A DNA stretch of 52,102 nucleotides from Peptococcaceae bacterium (GTDB lineage Bacteria; Bacillota; Desulfitobacteriia; Desulfitobacteriales; Syntrophobotulaceae). Below are positions 2,029 to 52,102 of the stretch, in pieces. How positions within the stretch are numbered: the stretch's first letter is position 1; the number at the start of each line of letters is the position of its first letter. The position numbers were made by a program, and so were the translations under genes. The notes beneath the pieces were generated by a model. The model worked only from the letters and a program-made list of their open reading frames with translations. It was not told the DNA's origin and searched no databases. Location of the stretch: contig JAAYUV010000059.1 of NCBI GenBank assembly GCA_012517475.1, forward strand, positions 1 to 52,102, read 5' to 3'.

Positions 2029-4266
2029 TCAAAGAAGAGGGCTTTTTTCTCCTGAGTAGTAAATTACCAGTTCATGCAATGCGCGGGTGCAGGAAATGTA
2101 CAACAGCTTTCTGTCAAGCTCCGTGGAATATAAATCATTCCCGGCTCCATACAGGATAACAACGTCATACTCAAGGCCTTTCGCCATATAAGAGGAGATC
2201 ACTACCGGACCCTTGACATAATCTTTATCATGGGGGCGGATCAGATAAATATCCAACAATTTCCTTAATTTTGAATAGACGGTCTCTGCTTGTCTTTGGG
2301 TCCTGCACATCACTGCAATCGTTTTATATCCTTTTTGAAGGAAGTCGGAAATTTCCCGGGCTATTGCTTTATCCATCTCATCCGCTGTTTCAATCGGTAC
2401 GATTCTTGGTTTATGGCCGTGGCGTTCAAAAGGGAGGATATCAGGCTGATTTGTACGCTCTTTCCCCAAAAATCTTTGGGAGAATTGATTGATTTCCACA
2501 GTAGAACGATAACTTTTTTGTAAAAAAAGCCGTGTGGTTTTCTTTTTGTTCATGATGTCTGAAATCTCATCGTAAATGGAATATCCCGGGTTTTTATCAA
2601 TGGATTGATGGATGTCGCCAAGCACAGTATAGGTTGCGTGCCTGAAGAGAATATTGAAAACTTCATATTGCAGCGGGGAATAGTCCTGTGCTTCATCAAT
2701 AACAACATGACGGATATCGGAATACAAATCATTTCCGTGAATTTTGAGCTTAAGAAAAAGCAATGGAGCATAGTCGCCGTAGGCAATGTGCCCGTTTTGC
2801 AGGTTGGTATGGGTCAATTTGATAATCTCTTCGATTTCTTCCGGAAGAGCCAAATCCTTTGCCAGAAGGTAAATATATTTGGGGTCTGAAAAAAACTTTT
2901 GATAGACCTGGAAATAATCTACTGATGTAAACCTTCGGAGGTTTCTCCGAAAGGATTCCGATTCCTTAATGGCGAGCAGTCTGCTGAACTGTTTGATTTC
3001 CAAATCGCGGCCTTCGCTTTTCGCAACGATCTTTTCGATTCTTTCCAGCCGTTCTTCTTTAAAGGGGTGGGTTTTAGGCAGCAGCATATTTTCTATCCGC
3101 TCAAGCTGTTTGGCCATCGGGATATCAATTTCATTACGAAGAAAACGATCCTTTAAAAGCTGCTTGTTTTCTAAGATAACTCCATGGAAATAGACATCTT
3201 CAAAGGGAATAAGTTTTCGGCCGAAATATTGGATCCAACGGTTAAGGATTTCTATGAAGATTTTGGACCCTTTGAATAAATCACTTTTTCTTTTGATTTC
3301 AGCTTCCGGGGAATCATAGTTGCCAATCAGGTTTTCTAAATAGGTTTCCCTGTCGTGAAGTGTGAATCTGTCCCCCAGTAATTTTGCCGCAAGATCATCG
3401 AAGGTGGCTTGAACAACATTTTCCTCCCCCAGCTCCGGTAAAACACCGGAGATATATTGGCTGAAGACATCATTGGGGGAGATGATCAGAATATTATTGG
3501 AACGAATTTTACGGAGGCCTTCATACAGGAGAAAAGCAATGCGATGCAGGGCAATGGAAGTTTTTCCGCTCCCGGCGGTACCTTGAACCAACAATAGTTC
3601 ATTATCCGTATCCCGGATAATGATATCCTGTTCTTTTTGAATGGTTTCCACAATATTTTTCATCTGGGGCGAAGCATTTTGCCCCAGGATCTCTTGAAGG
3701 ATCTCGTCTGTAATCCGTATATCGCAATCAAAGAAGTATTGAAGGATTGATTTTTTGATTTTATACTGCCTCTTCAGGATGACTTCACCGGAACTGATGC
3801 CGGTCGGAGTTGCATAATCCGCTTTTCCTTTTTCATATCTGTAAAATATACTGGAGATCGGTGCCCGCCAGTCATAGACATACACTTCGTGGGTTTGGCG
3901 ATCCATCACATTGGCCGGACCAATATAAATCTTTTCTCTCATCCCAAACCCGTCTTCGATAAAATCAAAACGTCCGAAATAAGGTGAGTCAATTAATTTT
4001 TTGTAGCGGGTTACGTTTTGAGCCATATTGGTATAACCTATCGTTTGGCTGTTTACTTCAGAAAGAAATTGGACGATCTCCGTTAATCGCTCAAAATCAG
4101 TGGAAAAAGGGGTGGTGTTTTCCACCATGTCTTTCCTGGCTTCGATCAGATCTTTGCGGTGGGCAAGGGTATCTTCCAGCAGGGCATGTAATGTTTTTCT
4201 CAGAAACGAAAGGGTACTCTCCAAATAGTTCTTTTCTTCTTCCAGTTGTCCGCTTGGATCCGGCAT
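2029..4266 (-). CDS. helD: HelD-type UvrD/Rep superfamily-1 ATPase (RNA polymerase-recycling factor)
   Basis: A superfamily-1 helicase-like ATPase. The N-terminus is a long charged coiled coil (about residues 5-65), the arm that in Gram-positive HelD enters the RNA polymerase secondary channel. The Walker A motif is GTAGSGKTSIALHR, the Walker B region is VVIDEAQDYSPLQ, and late motifs include KSYRSTVEI and SSYMAKGLEYDVV. HelD releases stalled polymerase from nucleic acid using ATP. The frame is open from a TTG at 4275, but that codon directly abuts the AGGAG ribosome site (4276-4280). The ATG at 4266 has ideal 9-nt spacing and is chosen, giving 745 residues, close to the roughly 770 of Bacillus HelD. 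A classical DNA helicase IV role is less likely. Confidence 0.88.
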   Translation of the reverse strand: MPDPSGQLEEEKNYLESTLSFLRKTLHALLEDTLAHRKDLIEARKDMVENTTPFSTDFERLTEIVQFLSEVNSQTIGYTNMAQNVTRYKKLIDSPYFGRFDFIEDGFGMREKIYIGPANVMDRQTHEVYVYDWRAPISSIFYRYEKGKADYATPTGISSGEVILKRQYKIKKSILQYFFDCDIRITDEILQEILGQNASPQMKNIVETIQKEQDIIIRDTDNELLLVQGTAGSGKTSIALHRIAFLLYEGLRKIRSNNILIISPNDVFSQYISGVLPELGEENVVQATFDDLAAKLLGDRFTLHDRETYLENLIGNYDSPEAEIKRKSDLFKGSKIFIEILNRWIQYFGRKLIPFEDVYFHGVILENKQLLKDRFLRNEIDIPMAKQLERIENMLLPKTHPFKEERLERIEKIVAKSEGRDLEIKQFSRLLAIKESESFRRNLRRFTSVDYFQVYQKFFSDPKYIYLLAKDLALPEEIEEIIKLTHTNLQNGHIAYGDYAPLLFLKLKIHGNDLYSDIRHVVIDEAQDYSPLQYEVFNILFRHATYTVLGDIHQSIDKNPGYSIYDEISDIMNKKKTTRLFLQKSYRSTVEINQFSQRFLGKERTNQPDILPFERHGHKPRIVPIETADEMDKAIAREISDFLQKGYKTIAVMCRTQRQAETVYSKLRKLLDIYLIRPHDKDYVKGPVVISSYMAKGLEYDVVILYGAGNDLYSTELDRKLLYISCTRALHELVIYYSGEKSPLL

Positions 4267-4293
4267 ATTAACCAACTCCTTTCCTTAATACAG

Positions 4294-4323
4294 TTGACAA
4301 CATACTTCCGAATGTGCTATAAT
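4294..4323 (+). promoter_or_regulatory. Consensus sigma-A promoter upstream of copA
   Basis: A perfect TTGACA (4294-4299) and perfect TATAAT (4318-4323) are separated by 18 bp. It reads toward copA with a leader of about 240 nt and is divergent from helD. I found no convincing copper-repressor operator in the leader. Confidence 0.75.
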
Positions 4324-4570
4324 CCTGAATGGATAGCTGTAATAAAATAGGTTATTTGTGACCAATATTTTTAGTATATCTCAAAAAAGGTATTCCGTAA
4401 AGGTTATCTTTTTTTTGTTATTTAAATTTATAACCCATAAAAACTATGTATGTACGGGGATATATGTTAAAATGTACTTATTATTATAATATAAGTCATG
4501 AACAACTGCGTGCATGGGCAATCTTTTTTGGAGAACAATAGTAACTGATGGTGAACAAGGGGATGAAACA

Positions 4571-6994
4571 ATGAATAGAAAAGAAACTTTTGAGATAACC
4601 GGCATGTCCTGTGCTGCTTGCGCAGCCAGAATTGAAAAGAAAATCAACAGGCTTGAGGGAATTAAGCAGGGAAATGTCAATTTGGCCATGGAGAGAGCCG
4701 TAGTAGAATATGATGATACTGTCCTGAATCGGGAGAAAATAGCTGAAGCAGTGAAAAGCCTCGGATATGATGTCAAAGAAGAACCTGTGGACAAGGCAAA
4801 TAAAGTAAGCCTGGCAATTTCCGGGATGTCCTGTGCGGCTTGTGCCGCCAAAATTGAAAAGAAGCTGAATAAGCTGGAAGGGGTTTCCCAGGCTGCGGTT
4901 AACCTTGCTGCAGAAAAAGCCGTGGTTCAATATGAAGCATCTAAAATTACAGCATCTCAATTAATTAATACGATTGAAGGTTTGGGGTATCACGCCGAGC
5001 AGATTGAAGAAACAGGTAAGGACCGGGAAAAGGAACAGAGAGAAAAGGAAATTAACAGGCTGAAAAAAGAACTTGTCATCTCAGCCGTCCTTAGTTCTCC
5101 CCTCATCCTGGCCATGGTGCTCACCCTTATCAACCTGAATATCGCATTTTTGCATAATGAATATTTCCAGTTTCTGATCGCTACACCGATACAGTTTATT
5201 ATCGGTTTCAGATTTTATAAAAATGCGTATTATGCCCTGAAGTCAAAGGGCGCAAATATGGATGTTCTGGTTGCCATGGGAACCTCAGCAGCTTATTTCT
5301 TTAGTGTTTATAACGCTTTCTTCGTACCCGCGGGTCACGAGGGGATGATGAAGAATCTATATTTTGAAGCATCGGCAGTTATTATCACGTTAATTTTGTT
5401 TGGAAAATACCTGGAAGCGGTAGCCAAAGGCAAAACTTCAGAAGCGATCAAGAAACTCATGGGTCTTCAGGCCAAGACCGCAAGGGTGATACGGGACGGA
5501 AAAGAAACGGATATCCCGATTGCTGAAGTAGAAGTGGGAGATCTTGTCATCGTCAGACCCGGTGAAAAGATTCCTGTGGACGGCACGATCACAGAAGGCA
5601 GCTCCTCTGTGGATGAATCCATGCTGACAGGGGAAAGTCTTCCGGTGGAGAAGTACACCGGAGATATGGTAATAGGAGCGACCATTAACAAGTTCGGCAC
5701 TTTTACCTTTAGAGCGACCAAAGTGGGTAAAGATACGGCATTATCTCAGATTATTCAGATGGTTGAGGATGCCCAGGGATCTAAAGCCCCCATTCAGAAG
5801 ATTGCAGACCAGGTTGCCGGGGTTTTTGTACCGGTAGTACTCCTGATTGCCCTGGTTACTTTTCTGGCATGGTATTTCGGTGTAAGTGGAGGAACGGAAG
5901 TTACGCCGGCTATTATCAGTGCTGTAGCCGTTCTGGTCATAGCTTGTCCCTGTGCCCTGGGATTGGCAACGCCAACTGCCATTATGGTTGGGACAGGAAA
6001 AGGAGCAGAGAACGGAATTCTTTTTAAAGGCGGAGAGCATCTGGAGAGAACTTACAAGATCAATACCGTTGTTCTGGACAAGACCGGTACCATTACCAAA
6101 GGGCAGCCGGAAGTCACAGATATACTTCCCATCGGAACGATGACAGCAGAGGAGATTTTAAGTCTCGCTGCTATTACCGAAAAAAAATCGGAACATCCTC
6201 TTGGAGCAGCCATCTATGAAAATGCCAAGAAGCATTTTTCGAACATTCCTGATCCTGATCATTTTGAAGCGCTTCCGGGTAGGGGAGTCGAGGCCTCGAT
6301 CGGAGATAAGAGGGTAAGTATTGGGACCAGAAAACTCATGAGAGAAAAGAACCTTGACATAGAAGCAATAGAAACGGTGATTCAAAAACTGGAGGATGAA
6401 GGAAAAACCGCAATGTTGCTTGCTGCTAACCAAGTTATAGAAGCTGTGATTGCGGTTGCCGACACGGTAAAGGAGAATTCCCGGGAAGCGATCAATGAAC
6501 TCAAGAAAATGGGAATAGATGTTTATATGATTACGGGAGATAATCTGCGGACTGCCAATGCGATTGCTGCACAAGTCGGAATCACTCATGTTCTGGCCGA
6601 GGTTCTTCCTGAGAATAAAGCGGAAGAAGTGGAAAAACTGAAAAAACAAGGTCAAGTTGTGGCGATGGTAGGAGACGGTATTAATGATGCTCCTGCCCTG
6701 GCAACAGCGGATATCGGGATGGCAATAGGAACGGGTACGGATGTAGCGATAGAAGCAGCGGATGTAACCTTGATGAGAGGGGATCTGAGGTCTATCCCGG
6801 CAGCCATTCGCTTATCCAAAAAAACAATGAACAAGATTAAACAAAATCTTTTCTGGGCTTTTATTTATAACATTATTGGCATTCCTTTCGCTGCTTTGGG
6901 ATTTTTAAGTCCAATCATTGCGGGGGGAGCTATGGCTTTCAGCTCGGTTTCGGTTGTCACGAATTCCCTTAGTTTAAAGAGGTTCAAACCATAA
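4571..6994 (+). CDS. copA: Copper-translocating P1B-type ATPase
   Basis: A copper-exporting P-type ATPase of 807 residues. Two N-terminal heavy-metal-binding domains each carry GMSCAAC (cysteines near 14/17 and 88/91). They are followed by eight predicted membrane segments with the CPC ion-binding motif (C459-P-C461), the phosphorylation site DKTGT (D503), the SEHPLG motif and the [10 protein letters not shown] hinge. The late-helix YN and GxxSSVSVVxNSL motifs fit the Cu(I) subclass. The longer open frame starts at 4514, but ATG 4571 follows an AAGGGG ribosome site at sensible spacing and gives the family's usual N-terminus. With copZ downstream it forms a copper-detoxification pair at the cell membrane. 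Confidence 0.96.
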
Positions 6995-46488: not shown

Positions 46489-47589
46489 ATGAGTATTGAG
46501 GTTATTAGCGGTGACAATACCGAAATGCTGTTTGTAACTTTTACTTTTTCCAGGGAAAACGTGCAAAAAATAAAATTGATTTCAGGCAGCCGATGGGATC
46601 CGGTAAAAAAATATTGGGTTGTTCCCAAAAACAAAAGAACGATAAGAAATCTTTATAAAATTTTCGGTGAAAAATTAATTCTGGATTTGCCAAGCAGGAT
46701 CTGGCTGGATTCGATTGCCGAAAACGCTGTTCACATTCCTGATATTATCAGGAAGATGGAAGAAGAACTGATTTTAAAAGGATACAGTATCAATACAAGA
46801 AAAAATTATCTCGGACATATTCAAAGGTTTCTCTTGGACATTGGGAAAGACTATCGCGTGGTGGGGCCAGAGGATATCCGAACCTATGTACATAGGCTTC
46901 TGGAACCAAATTCTTATTCTCATTCGTTTATAAACCAATGCATCAGTGCGATAAATTTTTTATTTTTCCATGTTCTAAAAAGAGGAAATATACGCATATA
47001 TCTGCCCAGGCCCCAAAAAGAAGATAAACTTCCCGACGTGTTAAGTCAGGCTGAAATAGTCAGTATTTTCAAAACCGTAGAGAATGTAAAACATCGCGCA
47101 ATACTATTTCTTATATATTCGGCAGGATTACGCGTCAGCGAAGTGACAAATCTTAAAGTCCAAGACATAGATAAAGATAGGATGCTCATTCATATCAGAC
47201 AGGCAAAAGGAAGAAAAGACCGGTTTACAGTCCTTTCAGAATCTGCGCTCGATGCTCTGAGATTATATGTGAAACAATATAAGGTGAATGCCTGGCTATT
47301 CCCCGGAGAACAGGAAGGAAGTCATATATCGGAGCGATCTGTACAGAGTATATTTAAAGCTTCTTGCATAAAAGCAAAAATCAAGAAGAATGTGTCCGTG
47401 CACTCCCTAAGACATTCCTTCGCGACACATCTATTGGAAGGCGGAACCGATCTAAGATATATACAAGAACTTCTTGGACATAAAAATTTGAAGACCACAG
47501 AAATATATACACATGTAAGCAAAAAGGATATAGCCAGAATCCGAAGTCCGCTTGATTCCTTGAATTTTGAAACTGAAAAACCGGAGTAA
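46489..47589 (+). CDS. Tyrosine recombinase of the cassette array (non-canonical, Xer-like)
   Basis: 366 residues. Residues about 1-66 form an unusual N-terminal extension (SRENVQKIKLISGSRWDPVK, then YWVVP) resembling the small HARP-like modules of some Xer-type recombinases. A SAM-like core-binding domain (about 80-170) precedes the catalytic domain with Arg215 (SAGLRVSE), Lys240 (AKGRKDR), His305/Arg308 (HSLRHSF), His331 (GHKNLKTT) and nucleophile Tyr340 (IYTHVS). The tail IRSPLDSL matches the ending of IntI proteins. Only 93 residues separate Arg215 from Arg308; IntI1 has about 134 because of its extra IntI-specific segment. So it is closer to XerC/D in length. The start follows AAAGGGGAG. 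It probably acts on the array just downstream. Confidence 0.9.
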   Translation: MSIEVISGDNTEMLFVTFTFSRENVQKIKLISGSRWDPVKKYWVVPKNKRTIRNLYKIFGEKLILDLPSRIWLDSIAENAVHIPDIIRKMEEELILKGYSINTRKNYLGHIQRFLLDIGKDYRVVGPEDIRTYVHRLLEPNSYSHSFINQCISAINFLFFHVLKRGNIRIYLPRPQKEDKLPDVLSQAEIVSIFKTVENVKHRAILFLIYSAGLRVSEVTNLKVQDIDKDRMLIHIRQAKGRKDRFTVLSESALDALRLYVKQYKVNAWLFPGEQEGSHISERSVQSIFKASCIKAKIKKNVSVHSLRHSFATHLLEGGTDLRYIQELLGHKNLKTTEIYTHVSKKDIARIRSPLDSLNFETEKPE

Positions 47590-47609: not shown

Positions 47610-47685
47610 TTACCCGCAACACATGCGGAATAAATACCATAATTTGGATTTAATCCGCAACTGATGCGGGTAAGAACTGTTCTCT
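47610..47685 (+). other. attI-like site between the recombinase and cassette 1
   Basis: Two nested imperfect inverted repeats (47610-47618 with 47665-47673; 47624-47635 with 47648-47659) are followed by GTTCTCT (47679-47685), the insertion core. That core pairs perfectly with AGAGAAC (48311-48317) at the end of cassette 1, placing the junction at G47679/T47680. No matching left core is seen upstream, as expected for an attI rather than an attC. Confidence 0.6.
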
Positions 47686-47702
47686 GAAATCAGACGCAAA
47701 GA

Positions 47703-47727
47703 GAAGCGCATCCATGCGCTTCGGTTT
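47703..47727 (+). terminator. Hairpin at the start of cassette 1
   Basis: GAAGCGCA (47703-47710) pairs perfectly with TGCGCTTC (47715-47722), then GGTTTTG. It probably stops read-through from outside the cassette. Confidence 0.55.
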
Positions 47728-47823
47728 TGAATGAAGGGCTTCGAAGAGTTTATTTATTAGATGACATTATTTTTTCTGTTTGTGGTAAAATTAGATATAA
47801 AGTTAGTTTGGAGAGTGATTAGC

Positions 47824-48033
47824 ATGGTCCACAAAGTAACTGTCATTGTTCAGAAAGATGATGACTGGTATGTTGCAAAGTGCTTGGAGAACAGTGTAGC
47901 TTCACAGGGAAAGACGGTTGAAGAAGCAATTGCTAATCTTAAAGAAGCTTTAGAATTATATTATGAAGATATTCCTTCAGAAATTGTGGAACCAAGGCAG
48001 ACATTTGTTACCACATTGGAGGTAACTGTTTAA
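47824..48033 (+). CDS. hicB: HicB-family antitoxin (cassette 1)
   Basis: A 69-residue partial-RNase-H-fold antitoxin: VTVIVQKDDDWYVAKCLENS, VASQGKTVEEAIANLKEALE and LYYED are typical. The frame starts at 47761, but ATG 47824 is 8 nt after GGAGAG. The stop overlaps the hicA start (TAATG). ATGACA (47761-47766), 19 bp and TAAAAT (47786-47791) may form a cassette-borne promoter. It neutralises the HicA toxin. Confidence 0.88.
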   Translation: MVHKVTVIVQKDDDWYVAKCLENSVASQGKTVEEAIANLKEALELYYEDIPSEIVEPRQTFVTTLEVTV

Positions 48034-48260
48034 TGGGTTCGAAATATCCTGTTCTTAAACCGAATGAAATCATAAAAGCCTTGAATGATTTTGGTTTTAG
48101 AGTTATTTCTCAGAAGGGAAGTCATATTAAACTTCGTAGAGAAGGTTCGGACGCAAAAACGGTTATTGTTCCTAATCATTATGAAGTTGCAAGGGGTACG
48201 TTACAGAGCATACTTGAACAAGCTGGAATAACACTTGAAGAATTTTTGACTAAATTGTAA
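48033..48260 (+). CDS. hicA: HicA-family mRNA interferase toxin (cassette 1)
   Basis: A 75-residue dsRBD-like toxin with the catalytic His in QKGSHIKLRR and the conserved end VIVPNHYEVARGTLQSILEQ. HicA cuts mRNA when HicB is lost. Its ATG overlaps the hicB stop by one base. Together they form a complete toxin-antitoxin unit inside one cassette. Confidence 0.9.
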   Translation: MGSKYPVLKPNEIIKALNDFGFRVISQKGSHIKLRREGSDAKTVIVPNHYEVARGTLQSILEQAGITLEEFLTKL

Positions 48261-48265
48261 TTCAA

Positions 48266-48287
48266 GGGCCGCCATCCGTGGCGGCTC
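48266..48287 (+). terminator. Hairpin after hicA
   Basis: GCCGCCA (48268-48274) pairs with TGGCGGC (48279-48285), extended by G-T and G-C pairs. A near-identical hairpin ends cassette 5 (51908-51931). Confidence 0.55.
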
Positions 48288-48310
48288 TCAGTATAGGGGC
48301 GTCTGACATC

Positions 48311-48387
48311 AGAGAACAGCACGTTCCCGCCACTTGGAGGATGATGCATGCGGTTAGGGCGCGGCGGGAACCTGCGGGACGTTATGT
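48311..48387 (+). other. attC-like site of cassette 1
   Basis: R'' AGAGAAC (48311-48317), L'' (48319-48331), L' (48363-48375), spacer GGGAC and R' GTTATGT (48381-48387). L'' and L' pair at 12 of 13 positions. The length is 77 nt. Confidence 0.8.
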
Positions 48388-48432
48388 GTAATGTCCGTTT
48401 TCGAAGTTGTTTTTCGGGTCGTTAAAATAGAA

Positions 48433-48457
48433 ATAGGGCATCCATTTGGAGCCCTAT
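48433..48457 (-). terminator. Terminator of the cassette 2 toxin operon
   Basis: ATAGGGC (48433-48439) pairs with GCCCTAT (48451-48457). On the minus strand a TTTCTATTTT tract follows. Confidence 0.6.
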
Positions 48458-48460
48458 GCG

Positions 48461-48796
48461 TCAGTTATTCTGATTAACAAACTGTATAAATGCTTCTTGA
48501 ATATTTGCAAAATCGACAGGATGAAGAGATCCGATCTTGAAGTCAAGCTGTGAGGGGTTTAATATTATAGCTTTCGATACTCTGGCGGTAGATTTAAATC
48601 TTAAGTTAGCATATTGCCAATAATTTATTGGAATATCATATTTGTCATTTTCACGGGGTTGGGTTTTTGTTACTTTGATTACTAAGACCTCAAGATGTTC
48701 GAAGTTTAGAATTATAACCGGTCGGGGGAGGAATTGAGAAGCATCTTCTTCAAGAGGAAACTTTGCAAACCAGACGTCACCATTATTAATAATCAT
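48461..48796 (-). CDS. PemK/MazF-like toxin (cassette 2)
   Basis: A 111-residue SH3-like mRNA interferase candidate: GDVWFAKFPLEED at the start, RPVIILNFEHLEVLVIKVT and IILNPSQLDFKIGSL match the PemK/MazF pattern. The gene is reversed relative to the array and overlaps the upstream small gene by 4 nt (ATGA). It probably cleaves cellular RNA when unchecked. Confidence 0.8.
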   Translation of the reverse strand: MIINNGDVWFAKFPLEEDASQFLPRPVIILNFEHLEVLVIKVTKTQPRENDKYDIPINYWQYANLRFKSTARVSKAIILNPSQLDFKIGSLHPVDFANIQEAFIQFVNQNN

Positions 48797-49020
48797 TTGT
48801 TTTTCAGGTCTTTATACATCTCATCCCATTCTGTTTCGTCAAGCCAGGTATCATCTTTTGAGATTACAGTAAGACCGGATTTATTAATTTTGGTATTTGA
48901 TTTGGCAATCTTATCAATAACATCTTTGTTTTTGCTTATAAAGTCAGTAAAGGTTGTGTCCTCTTTTTTTTGAGGTATTGGCATATTATCCATCTCCTCG
49001 CGATTATACTTCTTATCCAT
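48793..49020 (-). CDS. Putative antitoxin partner (cassette 2)
   Basis: A 75-residue charged protein (KKYNREEMDNMPIPQKK and DDTWLDETEWDEMYKDLKNK). I do not recognise a family. Its small size, acidic C-terminus and 4-nt overlap with the PemK/MazF-like gene are typical of an antitoxin preceding its toxin. Confidence 0.7.
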   Translation of the reverse strand: MDKKYNREEMDNMPIPQKKEDTTFTDFISKNKDVIDKIAKSNTKINKSGLTVISKDDTWLDETEWDEMYKDLKNK

Positions 49021-49138
49021 ATCATACCATCCCTAACAAGTTAGTTTCAATAAATATTATGTCCATTTTTTAGAATATAGAAGGTTATTGTCGGATGTGC
49101 ATGGAATTAATTGTAATTATTTGGGGCACGGACACTAC

Positions 49139-49215
49139 ACATAACAGCGCATTCCCAAAATCTGAGAGAATATGGGAGTAGTAACCAGACTTCGGGAATA
49201 CGCGGGACGTTATAC
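49139..49215 (+). other. attC-like site of cassette 2
   Basis: R'' ACATAAC (49139-49145), L'' GCGCATTCCC (49147-49156), L' GGGAATACGC (49194-49203), spacer GGGAC and R' GTTATAC (49209-49215). The length is 77 nt. The single L mismatch is C-A on the top strand and G-T on the bottom strand. Confidence 0.85.
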
Positions 49216-49257
49216 GCAATCCACCTTGAAAGCTATCTTATAAGGAAGGTAAAAGGA

Positions 49258-50145
49258 ATGTTTCAAGGGAATACGGTTAATCACCAGACTTGCAGCAAAT
49301 GCGGTTTTTGCATTGAAGTATGTCCTAACAAAATTATCGAAATGGGTCAAGCTAGTGAGGTTATAATTAATTCCGATAAACAAAGTTTATGTGTCAAATG
49401 TGGACATTGTATGGCGATGTGTCCTACAAAATCTATTAAGGTTGCAGATCTGACTTATGAAGAAAACTTTTTTAAGTTGCCGGAAATACCTGTTGATGAA
49501 AATAGTTTTTTTAGCTTTTTATCCACTCGAAGGTCCATTAGGTTGTTTCAAGACAAACCGGTTCCAAGGGAATTACTTGAGAAAATAATTCATGCCATAT
49601 CAATGGCTCCGATGGGGTTCCCGCCCCATAAAACTGAAATTACAGTAGCCCAAAATAAAAGTGTGGTTAAAGAAGCATTGAAATACATGGTTAAATCGTA
49701 TCAGGATTTGGAAAGAGGAATGAGGAATCCAATGATTCGCTCAATAATTCGATTAAGTGTAAACCGTGAAACTTTTAATTCCATCAAGAACCACGTTTTG
49801 CCAATAATGAAGTTCGGATTACCTTATATGGAGAAAACCGGAGACGATATAATTACAAGAGGGGCACCGGCAATGCTCATTTTTCATGCGGATAAAGCAT
49901 CAGAGTCCCATACTGAGGATTTATATATTTGCCTTGCTTATGGATTACTGGCTGCACACTCGTTGGGACTTGGTGCTACGGCAATAGGGCTTGTTCCTCC
50001 CGTAATCGAAAGGAATAAATTATTGCGTAAAATGTTTCAGATTCCTTCGGAAAACGAGGTTCTGGCTGCAATGGTCGTAGGCTATCCTAGGCATAGTTTT
50101 AAATGTGGAATCCGACGGGAATTAAGAAATGTAAATTGGATTTAA
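49258..50145 (+). CDS. Ferredoxin-nitroreductase fusion protein (cassette 3)
   Basis: 295 residues. Two [4Fe-4S] motifs (C12-C15-C18-C22 and C45-C48-C51-C55) form an N-terminal ferredoxin. A nitroreductase-family FMN domain (about 80-295) starts STRRSIRLFQDKPVP, with RGAPAMLIFHAD and CLAYGLLAAHSLGLGATAIG. Such fusions occur in anaerobes and pass electrons from the clusters to FMN; the substrate is unknown. The start follows AAGGAAGG. It is the only clearly metabolic gene among the cassettes and lies in the array's direction. Confidence 0.88.
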   Translation: MFQGNTVNHQTCSKCGFCIEVCPNKIIEMGQASEVIINSDKQSLCVKCGHCMAMCPTKSIKVADLTYEENFFKLPEIPVDENSFFSFLSTRRSIRLFQDKPVPRELLEKIIHAISMAPMGFPPHKTEITVAQNKSVVKEALKYMVKSYQDLERGMRNPMIRSIIRLSVNRETFNSIKNHVLPIMKFGLPYMEKTGDDIITRGAPAMLIFHADKASESHTEDLYICLAYGLLAAHSLGLGATAIGLVPPVIERNKLLRKMFQIPSENEVLAAMVVGYPRHSFKCGIRRELRNVNWI

Positions 50146-50192
50146 GTACCGAAAAAAGGGTTGTTGAAGCAAATTCACAAGAGGTGGACTGC

Positions 50193-50268
50193 GTATAACA
50201 GCGTATTCCCAACACTTAGTTAGGATGAAAGTGGTTGGGACGCGTCGGGATTACGCAGAACGTTATAC
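50193..50268 (+). other. attC-like site of cassette 3
   Basis: R'' GTATAAC (50193-50199), L'' GCGTATTCCC (50201-50210), L' GGGATTACGC (50247-50256), spacer AGAAC and R' GTTATAC (50262-50268). R'' and R' are perfectly complementary. An inner CCCAACACTT/AAGTGGTTGGG stem extends the hairpin. The length is 76 nt. Confidence 0.88.
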
Positions 50269-50300
50269 GCCATAACGATATAAAAGGAAGTAGTAGAGAG

Positions 50301-51185
50301 ATGTTTGATTTAGGCAAGATATTAAGAGATTTGGAAATAAGCCAAGATTATATGGCTTCAAAGCTAGGAGTCTCTAGTGACTACCTAGATGACGTTATCA
50401 AATCGGATAATGAGGAGCTTCAGTCAGAGTTATATGGGCAATTCATCCAGATTGAGACCAATGAGCAACTACTTCCTGAGCTTATTCAATTTTATCAGGA
50501 GTTTACTGAAGACCAAACGGAATTGGAAAGTTTCCTAAGAGAAGCGCTTTTCTATCAGGCTACTAATATCCCCCGAAGAATGGTAAACATAGTTGAGTGG
50601 CTTGTCACCCTTGCGGACGATATTGAACAGATTAGAAAGGGCAAGGATGGCTTGAAGATTTTCTTCTTGGTAGTTTGTATTGAGACATTAAACGTACTAG
50701 CCAACCCAGAAGAGGGCAAAAGTAAACTTGAAATGATTATCGACTTTTTCAAGAACCAAATATATCAAGAAGATAAAGTGCATATTTTAGGAAACATTAA
50801 GAGAAGTTTAGCCGATTCTCGATTTAACGTTTTCCGTGAAGAGTACGAAACTCAGGAGGAACATAAAAGTAGAATTGCCGAGGAAATCGACTGGAGTTTC
50901 AATACGGAGATTAGTATCGAAACATTTGCCAGGATGATAAATGAAGTTAGGAATATATTTGTTCATGAAGGAAACTTTTGGGAGTTTCATTTTTCTGATG
51001 GAGATGTTCCATTGATGAATATCCTAAGGCTTGCGGAGAATTTTCAGGAATTTAAACGTAAACGTAGAGAAGAGAGAATTTACGATATTAATCTGACTTA
51101 CAAAGAGTTTCGTCGAATTTGCGTTAGAGGGTATATCAATTTTATTTGTAAGTATATAGCATCAATCAAAAAGGAAACGCTTTAG
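50301..51185 (+). CDS. Unknown protein with HTH-like N-terminus and HEPN-like Rx4H motif (cassette 4)
   Basis: 294 residues from ATG 50301, preceded by AAGGAAG and AGAGAG; the frame start at 50235 lies inside the attC and is rejected. Residues about 1-35 resemble a Cro/XRE helix-turn-helix (LEISQDYMASKLGVSSDYLD). The rest is helical and charged. Near 217-222 the sequence RNIFVH fits the Rx4-6H signature of HEPN ribonucleases, preceded by helices as in that fold. I recognise no named family. An RNase toxin or defence protein is an inference from this motif and the toxin-rich array. Confidence 0.6.
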   Translation: MFDLGKILRDLEISQDYMASKLGVSSDYLDDVIKSDNEELQSELYGQFIQIETNEQLLPELIQFYQEFTEDQTELESFLREALFYQATNIPRRMVNIVEWLVTLADDIEQIRKGKDGLKIFFLVVCIETLNVLANPEEGKSKLEMIIDFFKNQIYQEDKVHILGNIKRSLADSRFNVFREEYETQEEHKSRIAEEIDWSFNTEISIETFARMINEVRNIFVHEGNFWEFHFSDGDVPLMNILRLAENFQEFKRKRREERIYDINLTYKEFRRICVRGYINFICKYIASIKKETL

Positions 51186-51209
51186 CTGTCTATGGGGCAT
51201 CGTTACGGC

Positions 51210-51283
51210 GTATAACACGCCTTTCCCGAAACTTAGAATATATGAATGAAGTAAGACGCTTCGGGAACGGCTGAACGTTCTAC
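51210..51283 (+). other. attC-like site of cassette 4
   Basis: R'' GTATAAC (51210-51216), L'' (51218-51230), L' TTCGGGAACGGC (51260-51271), spacer TGAAC and R' GTTCTAC (51277-51283). The length is 74 nt. Confidence 0.8.
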
Positions 51284-51299
51284 GAAACCTACGCATTGG

Positions 51300-51323
51300 C
51301 CGCGCCTCCATGCGCGGATTTTT
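51300..51323 (+). terminator. Terminator at the start of cassette 5
   Basis: CCGCGC (51300-51305) pairs with GCGCGG (51312-51317), then ATTTTT. Like the hairpin opening cassette 1, it may insulate the cassette from upstream transcription. Confidence 0.6.
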
Positions 51324-51392
51324 CCCAGTTGTGCTATGGTGGTTTCTCTTTTAAGATTGAACTAGAATATAATTTAATTGTATTACAGAAAC

Positions 51393-51401
51393 TGGTATAA
51401 T
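51393..51401 (+). promoter_or_regulatory. Extended -10 promoter of the cassette 5 hicAB genes
   Basis: TGGTATAAT is an extended -10 element 24 nt upstream of the hicA GTG start. The -35 (TTTAAT, 17 bp upstream) is weak. Confidence 0.6.
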
Positions 51402-51424
51402 GGTTTTGTAGGAGGCTCGGATAA

Positions 51425-51685
51425 GTGGGTCAATTTGAAAAGATATTAATAAAAATATTATGTGGAACAAAAGATAAAGATATTGATTTTGACAATATCT
51501 GTAAAGTGTTGCATCATTTTGGATTTGAGGAGCGTATTAGTGGTAGTCATCATATCTTTCATAAAGACGGTATAGATGAAATCATTAATATTCAACCCAA
51601 TGGCTCAAAAGCAAAGCCGTATCAAGTCAAACAGGTAAGACACATTCTTTTGAAATATAAACTTGGAGGTGGTATTGATGCATAA
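51425..51685 (+). CDS. HicA-family toxin (cassette 5)
   Basis: An 86-residue HicA-like protein: FDNICKVLHHFGFEERISGS, catalytic-type His in GSHHIFHKDG, and AKPYQVKQVRHILLKY. It starts with GTG 9 nt after GGAGG. Its end overlaps the antitoxin gene by 8 nt. Gene order (toxin first) is the reverse of cassette 1. Confidence 0.85.
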   Translation: MGQFEKILIKILCGTKDKDIDFDNICKVLHHFGFEERISGSHHIFHKDGIDEIINIQPNGSKAKPYQVKQVRHILLKYKLGGGIDA

Positions 51686-51887
51686 GTATGAAATAATCAT
51701 ATATTGGAGCGATGAAGACGAGGCATATATTGCAGAAGTGCCAGAATTACCAGGATGTTGTGCCGATGGCAAAACGCATCAAGAAGTTTTAAAGAATGTT
51801 GAAGTTGTTATTAATGAATGGATAGAAACTGCAAAATCTTTAGGAAGATTAGTTCCAAAACCCAAAGGTAGATTATTATTTGCATAA
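51678..51887 (+). CDS. HicB-family antitoxin (cassette 5)
   Basis: A 69-residue HicB-type antitoxin: YEIIIYWSDEDEAYIAEVPE, LPGCCADGKTHQEVLKNVE and EWIETAKSLGR. ATG 51678 is 8 nt after GGAGG; the frame start at 51663 overlaps that site. It pairs with the upstream HicA. Confidence 0.88.
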   Translation: MHKYEIIIYWSDEDEAYIAEVPELPGCCADGKTHQEVLKNVEVVINEWIETAKSLGRLVPKPKGRLLFA

Positions 51888-51907
51888 GCTTTGCTCTTTA
51901 GTTTAAA

Positions 51908-51931
51908 GGGGCCGCCATCCGTGGCGGCCTC
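51908..51931 (+). terminator. Hairpin after the cassette 5 hicAB genes
   Basis: GGCCGCCA (51910-51917) pairs perfectly with TGGCGGCC (51922-51929). It is homologous to the hairpin ending cassette 1. Confidence 0.55.
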
Positions 51932-51954
51932 TGAATCTAGGGGCGTACGGCTTC

Positions 51955-52069
51955 GTATAACGTAAGCGTAAACTCCACAGGCGTAAAAAAGGAACCCACT
52001 GTAAACCAGCAGGCCCCGTCGAATAAAAATCATTCGTCCTATTTGCTCTGTGGATCCGGTACGCGGCAC
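51955..52069 (+). other. Partial or degenerate attC-like site of cassette 5
   Basis: R'' GTATAAC (51955-51961) is followed by a long stem, GCGTA/TACGC (51966-51970 with 52060-52064) and TCCACAG/CTGTGGA (51974-51980 with 52048-52054). A GGCAC spacer follows at the expected place, but no GTT core comes after it. The expected length would be about 122 nt. The array may end here or the core may be mutated. Confidence 0.55.
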
Positions 52070-52102
52070 TGCTCCGGAGCATTTGCCGGCAACAGCTGAG
52101 TC

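Follow-up and report, generated by a model that had tools for sequence, protein, structure and literature searches.

The stretch of DNA analyzed here (the window, 52,102 nucleotides from a Peptococcaceae bacterium) contains an ORF encoding a tyrosine recombinase of 366 amino acids, and directly downstream of this gene lie four complete attC-bounded cassettes as well as a fifth one with an interrupted site. The individual features of the gene, of the region following its stop codon and of the array are given below.

46489..47589, plus strand: HARP-domain tyrosine recombinase, the proposed array integrase, 366 aa (ORF, domains, alignment, homologues adjoining arrays)
46489..46686, plus strand: N-terminal HARP-like domain, about residues 1-66, strand-strand-helix-strand-strand-helix (Pfam HARP match of the family, 4o66 profile match, AF2)
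46747..46983, plus strand: core-binding (SAM-like) domain, residues 87-165 (Pfam PF13495, E 3e-13)
47038..47523, plus strand: catalytic domain without I2 insert, residues 184-345 (Pfam PF00589, E 1e-41; R-R distance 93; alignment)
47614..47628, plus strand: putative attI palindrome 1, CCGCAACACATGCGG (lineage-specific pair of palindromes, also located here in relatives)
47655..47669, plus strand: putative attI palindrome 2, CCGCAACTGATGCGG (same evidence as palindrome 1)
47679..47680, plus strand: inferred attI crossover G^TT, 89 bp past the stop codon (start of cassette 1 complementary to its own end)
47680..48381, plus strand: cassette 1, HicB-like and HicA genes
48311..48388, plus strand: attC 1 (covariance model, folding)
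48382..49209, plus strand: cassette 2, PemK/MazF-like toxin and partner ORF, both encoded on the minus strand (copies in other genera stop near the cassette boundaries)
49139..49216, plus strand: attC 2 (covariance model)
49210..50262, plus strand: cassette 3, ferredoxin-nitroreductase gene (49258-50145)
50193..50269, plus strand: attC 3 (covariance model)
50263..51277, plus strand: cassette 4, ORF of unknown function ending at 51185
51210..51284, plus strand: attC 4 (covariance model)
51278..51961, plus strand: cassette 5, HicA/HicB pair, with a repeat interrupting its attC behind the R'' box

The first crossover, 89 bp behind the integrase gene in a layout shared with relatives, satisfies the criterion of an attI adjoining the gene; the site remains a putative attI with an inferred function. 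Similarly, attC-bounded cassettes with R'' and R' boxes and a G^TT crossover satisfy the criterion of an array, and the crossover point was identical in every cassette of the window. The starts of cassettes 1-4 were complementary to the ends of the same cassettes (47679/48315, 48381/49143, 49209/50197 and 50262/51214) and far less so to the end of the following cassette. Judged from sequence, this complementarity of a start to its own end is the mark of units that would circularize and recombine at one point. An attC search with Rfam yielded no match, and a hand-made scanner for arm pairs was too weak to tell sites from chance, so that a covariance model and the complementarity of cassette ends were used instead. 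Parts of the array matched DNA of other genera at 72-92%, with the strong matches stopping close to cassette boundaries (genome G029, window 48413-49212; G066, 48392-49217; G007, 47779-48335) and attC sites being located at or near the ends of the matching stretches. This supports a movement of cassettes one by one, with insertion and excision themselves being inferred.

Toxin-antitoxin-like pairs were present in three of the five cassettes (HicAB 47761-48260, PemK/MazF 48461-49020 and HicAB 51425-51887). The repeat at 51959-52102, which reaches the contig end and has 99% identical copies in three contigs of the same genome (C45, C53 and C54), is probably the end of an insertion sequence. Further attC-like sites in this genome (G000; contigs C33, C49, C50, C53, C66 and C88) indicate more cassettes outside the array of the window. 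Additional hairpins frame many cassettes: a variable stem with a (G/A)TCC(T/A/G) loop occurred shortly before R'' in 21 of 38 cassettes, often followed by CTCTGA..GGGGC, and a similar hairpin was found just past the crossover in 19 of 38; the background rate is 8% per 70 nt. Such hairpins are located at 48266-48285 and 51296-51313 in the window as well as in many relatives.

Alignment with IntI1, IntI2, a Vibrio IntI and Xer proteins identified R215, K243, H305, R308, H331 and Y340 as the catalytic residues of the window integrase, which bears out the original prediction that all of them are present and satisfies the R-K-H-R-H-Y criterion for a tyrosine recombinase. The distance between the two catalytic arginines, estimated earlier at about 93 residues, is exactly 93 (R215 to R308) and ranged from 93 to 97 in the array-linked relatives measured, while a motif search gave 134-135 for nearly all sampled canonical IntI, two of which yielded no reliable value. 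The gap in the alignment spans I2 together with the proline and histidines that hold the extrahelical bases, and the IntI model TIGR02249 was covered by the HARP integrase family at positions 1-180 and 232-315 only. With a spacing of 93 versus 134-135 and the insert unmatched by the model, the enzyme lacks the IntI-specific additional domain with its I2 helix, as had been claimed; an IntI-insert match, which would have refuted this claim, was sought with IntI and Xer models, arginine spacing and alignment, and was absent.

The window integrase scored 215.8 bits against TIGR02249, under the curated cut-off of 265, and 215.6 bits against the XerA-type model XerA_Arch (NF040815), narrowly missing the cut-off of 220. 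The XerC and XerD models (TIGR02224/TIGR02225) gave 183 and 189 bits (188.6 for XerD) and were both missed at cut-offs of 335 and 330. The earlier description of the arginine spacing as close to that of XerD and about 40 residues shorter than in IntI1 is right in its figures, but the enzyme is no nearer to XerD than to IntI. An identity as XerD was dropped on the basis of the model cut-offs and the tree; other Xer-like genes are present in the same genome (L003 and L004). The top Foldseek match was IntI4, and VIA-align, which covered mainly the recombinase part, was uninformative on the HARP domain. The C-terminal tail had been regarded as an IntI-like mark, a reading that could not be kept, since SPLD also ends recombinases not adjoining attC sites and array-less relatives share it.

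In the phylogenetic tree, in which the Xer rows were drawn as the deepest group, canonical IntI formed one group (support 100/99), and the HARP integrases together with IS91-linked and viral relatives formed a separate group beside it (99/97). The window integrase does not satisfy the criterion of membership in the IntI clade. The search with IntI and Xer models and the phylogeny that the original prediction had proposed as checks thus ended with no model cut-off reached and with the enzyme outside the IntI clade. Because the IntI group and the HARP-containing group are separate, the absence of I2 cannot be taken as a demonstrated loss, and the label of an IntI that lost I2 was dropped on account of the tree. 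The tree included few Xer rows, and the backbone inside the HARP clade was unresolved. Among the HARP-less relatives, L028 (4311-5009, on contig C53 of the same genome) and L027 are each followed by a zinc-finger transposase gene in an IS91-like element.

The N-terminal extension noticed earlier proved to be real and conserved, consisting of a domain of about 65 aa ahead of a core-binding domain that starts near residue 87, and it is kept in relatives across many genera. Pfam HARP (PF07443) was matched by 15 of 23 family members (best E 4.9e-9), and comparison of the family profile with solved structures gave the HARP domain of SMARCAL1 (4o66, E 0.004) as the best match. By itself, the window integrase remained below the threshold of PF07443, which only the family reaches, and its HARP assignment therefore rests on the family. 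The N-terminal domain was predicted by AF2 with a pLDDT of 91.6, and Foldseek of the isolated domain returned weak matches to N-terminal parts of XPB (prob 0.84) and to SMARCAL1 HARP 4o66 (prob 0.44). A structural relationship between the HARP domain and the damage-recognition domain of XPB has been reported. By its sequence matches, the extension would belong to a family related to HARP, the branched-DNA reader of SMARCAL1. The SMARCAL1 protein binds branched and not linear DNA, with forks, ss/ds junctions, bubbles and Holliday junctions as its targets (PMC4035279). The proposal that the N-terminus replaces I2 gains support from this, because the domain is HARP-like and the SMARCAL1 protein binds forks and ss/ds junctions; the replacement itself remains an inference.

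Homologues carrying the extension were gathered from the order, the phylum, Bacteroidota plasmids and one spirochaete, while the window integrase alone, used to search genome contigs, retrieved only two distant loci. The assignment of the relatives to Bacillota was inferred from gene content and group structure. Association with an array was scored when a cassette began 40-350 bp past the stop codon, had ends complementary to each other and carried an attC-like stem. This strict test was passed by 16 of 28 HARP-group loci versus none of 14 HARP-less relatives (Fisher p 2e-4); shuffles predict 0.10 passing loci, and reading upstream gave 0/37. A few of the 28 loci are truncated by contig ends or decayed, and since loci are related, the counts are not independent. 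Passing loci span six family codes as well as two Bacteroidota plasmids, with a distance between gene and array of mostly 80-150 bp, and many of them have two palindromes about 40 bp apart between the gene and the first crossover, the sequence of which varies by lineage and is matched within each locus. The locus L109 (12908-13726), in which the array begins 83 bp behind the integrase, passed and was counted in the HARP group; no HARP domain was detectable in its integrase, though the close relative L105 has one. Several of the 12 failing loci contained attC sites by covariance model (L019, L088, L091 and L106), with at least 14 in L019, and no clear array was seen at some HARP loci (L101, L102 and L103). 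On the basis of this test, the reading of the integrase as a chance neighbor of the array was dropped.

Canonical IntI was absent from the genome of the window and from all 74 genomes of the order searched (0/74), and was found in 2 of 398 genomes of the phylum sample; the same search was positive in 27 of 247 spirochaete genomes, showing that it works. The original prediction would have been refuted by homologues never found beside attC arrays with another integrase next to this one, and neither holds: homologues adjoin arrays, and no other integron integrase was found in the genome. Elsewhere among the relatives, L026 (about 3982-5900) has an attC, interrupted by an apparent insertion sequence, next to a decayed integrase of the HARP family, and the array of the Chryseobacterium plasmid locus L120 (13053-20879) contains, between cassettes, four copies of a 282-nt unit that holds a long hairpin attC-like site.

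The attC sites of the HARP-integrase kind differ from those described for IntI. Published work describes two to three extrahelical bases as a feature of every known attC that governs which strand is chosen, and attC x attC recombination by IntI is lost in their absence (PMC2727003); one of these bases is contacted in trans by I2 (PMC3053210). Because unconstrained folding missed the known fold of the VCR controls, arms were compared by alignment. The two arms aligned gap-free in 53 of 56 sites, while gaps, which correspond to the extrahelical bases, were present in 18 of 18 VCR sites; the criterion of extrahelical bases in a folded bottom-strand attC is therefore not satisfied. Instead, the sites have a one-sided bulge, with spacers that differ in length by 4 nt at 32 distinct sites and by 3 nt at 16, and the standard pairs other than Watson-Crick among the first 14 stem pairs comprised 79 cells with bottom-strand G.T versus 3 with top-strand G.T. 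The bottom strand folded better in 46 of 56 sites. Cassette ends paired over about 17 bp, compared to about 9 bp in VCR cassettes, and in 37 of 39 cassettes, which were selected independently of complementarity, position 11 of the ends had a conserved A/G substitution; the resulting pair is a T.G wobble in the bottom strand but an A.C mismatch in the top strand. These site and cell counts come from related loci, are not independent and are quoted as patterns. A search of canonical spirochaete integrons for long cassette-end complementarity found none, because canonical ends pair over a shorter stretch, as is seen in the VCR control. With no extrahelical bases in attC and I2 as their reader, enzyme and site therefore differ from IntI integrons in a matching way.

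Taken together, the locus is probably a complete integron consisting of integrase gene, attI and array, with an integrase from a separate HARP branch that never had or does not use I2, and with recombination itself being inferred. In the proposed working, the enzyme would cut attI as double-stranded DNA at G^TT, the cut attI would recombine with the folded bottom strand of the attC of a cassette, and cassettes would leave by attC x attC. That the window enzyme performs this recombination and that the bottom strand is its substrate are both inferences, as are a strand choice set by wobbles and bulge instead of extrahelical bases and the recognition, by HARP rather than I2, of the branched ss/ds hairpin or of the Holliday junction. 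More tentatively, and at somewhat below even chances, we consider a second integron lineage beside the IntI clade, in which folded single-stranded attC would be recombined without I2 or extrahelical bases by means of HARP and a wobble-and-bulge strand code, with cassette capture predating I2 or arising twice.

The rival explanations concern the enzyme, its extra domain and its origin. The array could be a CALIN-like cluster kept by a canonical IntI in trans, with the neighboring recombinase being an unrelated Xer- or phage-type enzyme adjacent by chance; CALINs occur commonly in genomes that have no intI (PMC9668308), and tyrosine recombinases are numerous. We regard this as very improbable, since the adjacency recurs in six family codes and on two Bacteroidota plasmids at mostly 80-150 bp, in many cases with the paired palindromes, no canonical IntI was found in the 74 genomes of the order, and the extrahelical bases without which IntI cannot perform attC x attC (PMC2727003) are missing from attC sites of this kind. 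Descent from a canonical integron, in which the integrase lost I2 and attC then lost the extrahelical bases, would account for core sites (R''/R' boxes and G^TT) that are the same as in integrons, and the loss of a 40-residue insert is simple. The tree, however, places IntI (100/99) outside the HARP-containing group (99/97) and not as its parent, and deletion of I2 inactivates IntI1 (PMC7790495), so that this origin appears improbable as well.

An alternative that is unlikely but carries appreciable weight accepts the enzyme as array integrase and has HARP bind the two attI palindromes in the style of arm binding, or autoregulate, instead of reading attC. The N-terminal domains of other integrases bind arm sites, as that of lambda Int does, and the two palindromes, spaced by about 40 bp, change in sequence between lineages but stay matched to each other. 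Against this, the known HARP protein binds branched and not linear DNA (PMC4035279). Palindromes and hairpins could both be targets of HARP, and binding at attI does not exclude the main reading of a complete integron with an integrase of the HARP branch.

The I2 domain is described as a requirement for cassette capture that occurs in no other protein, and missing intermediates are a named obstacle to reconstructing the origin of integrons (PMC7790495). The origin of single-strand cassette recombination would become directly testable with a widespread lineage that lacks the insert and has correspondingly altered DNA sites, and this lineage also brings to light a pool of cassettes that surveys based on the insert would overlook; one survey filtered IntI by the I2 insert (PMC2426708). 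Integrons have been regarded as nearly absent from Firmicutes, where IntegronFinder 2 reported one complete integron (PMC9024848). No description of HARP-domain integrases or of attC without extrahelical bases was found in the literature searched, with most subscription papers being outside its scope, and the novelty of HARP-integrase integrons is likely, not proven. A classification of recombinases states, in the part available to us, that conservation of the IntI insertion is incomplete in an integron-like subgroup (PMC8138268), which may include some insert-less relatives; that part mentions no HARP domain and gives no cassette arrays or attC features for insert-less members.

Compared to known systems, the window integrase resembles XerA/XerC/XerD in the spacing of its catalytic motifs (93 vs 92-104) and in having no insert, but differs by its position on a different branch of the tree (99/98), its link to arrays and its N-terminal HARP domain. 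The IS91-linked recombinases (L027 and L028 type) are the nearest HARP-less relatives and have the same SPLD tail and R-R distance, but no HARP and no attI or cassette directly behind the gene (0/14). The likeness to SMARCAL1/HARP (PF07443, 4o66) consists of the sequence family match and the predicted order of strands and helices, with HARP being fused to an SNF2 motor there and to a tyrosine recombinase here. With canonical integrons (IntI1, VchIntIA; PDB 2a3v) the locus shares an attI by the integrase gene, tandem cassettes, the G^TT crossover, attC with R''/L''/L'/R' boxes, toxin-antitoxin and other accessory cargo, and the nearest Foldseek match. In contrast to canonical IntI, its integrase has neither I2 nor the residues holding extrahelical bases and carries an extra HARP domain, while HARP-type attC have a one-sided bulge and bottom-strand wobbles in place of extrahelical bases, and the complementarity of the cassette ends extends over about 17 bp, compared to about 9. 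The layout differs as well: intI is usually oriented divergently from its array, whereas in the HARP type attI lies behind the stop codon and the integrase gene points in the direction of the array.
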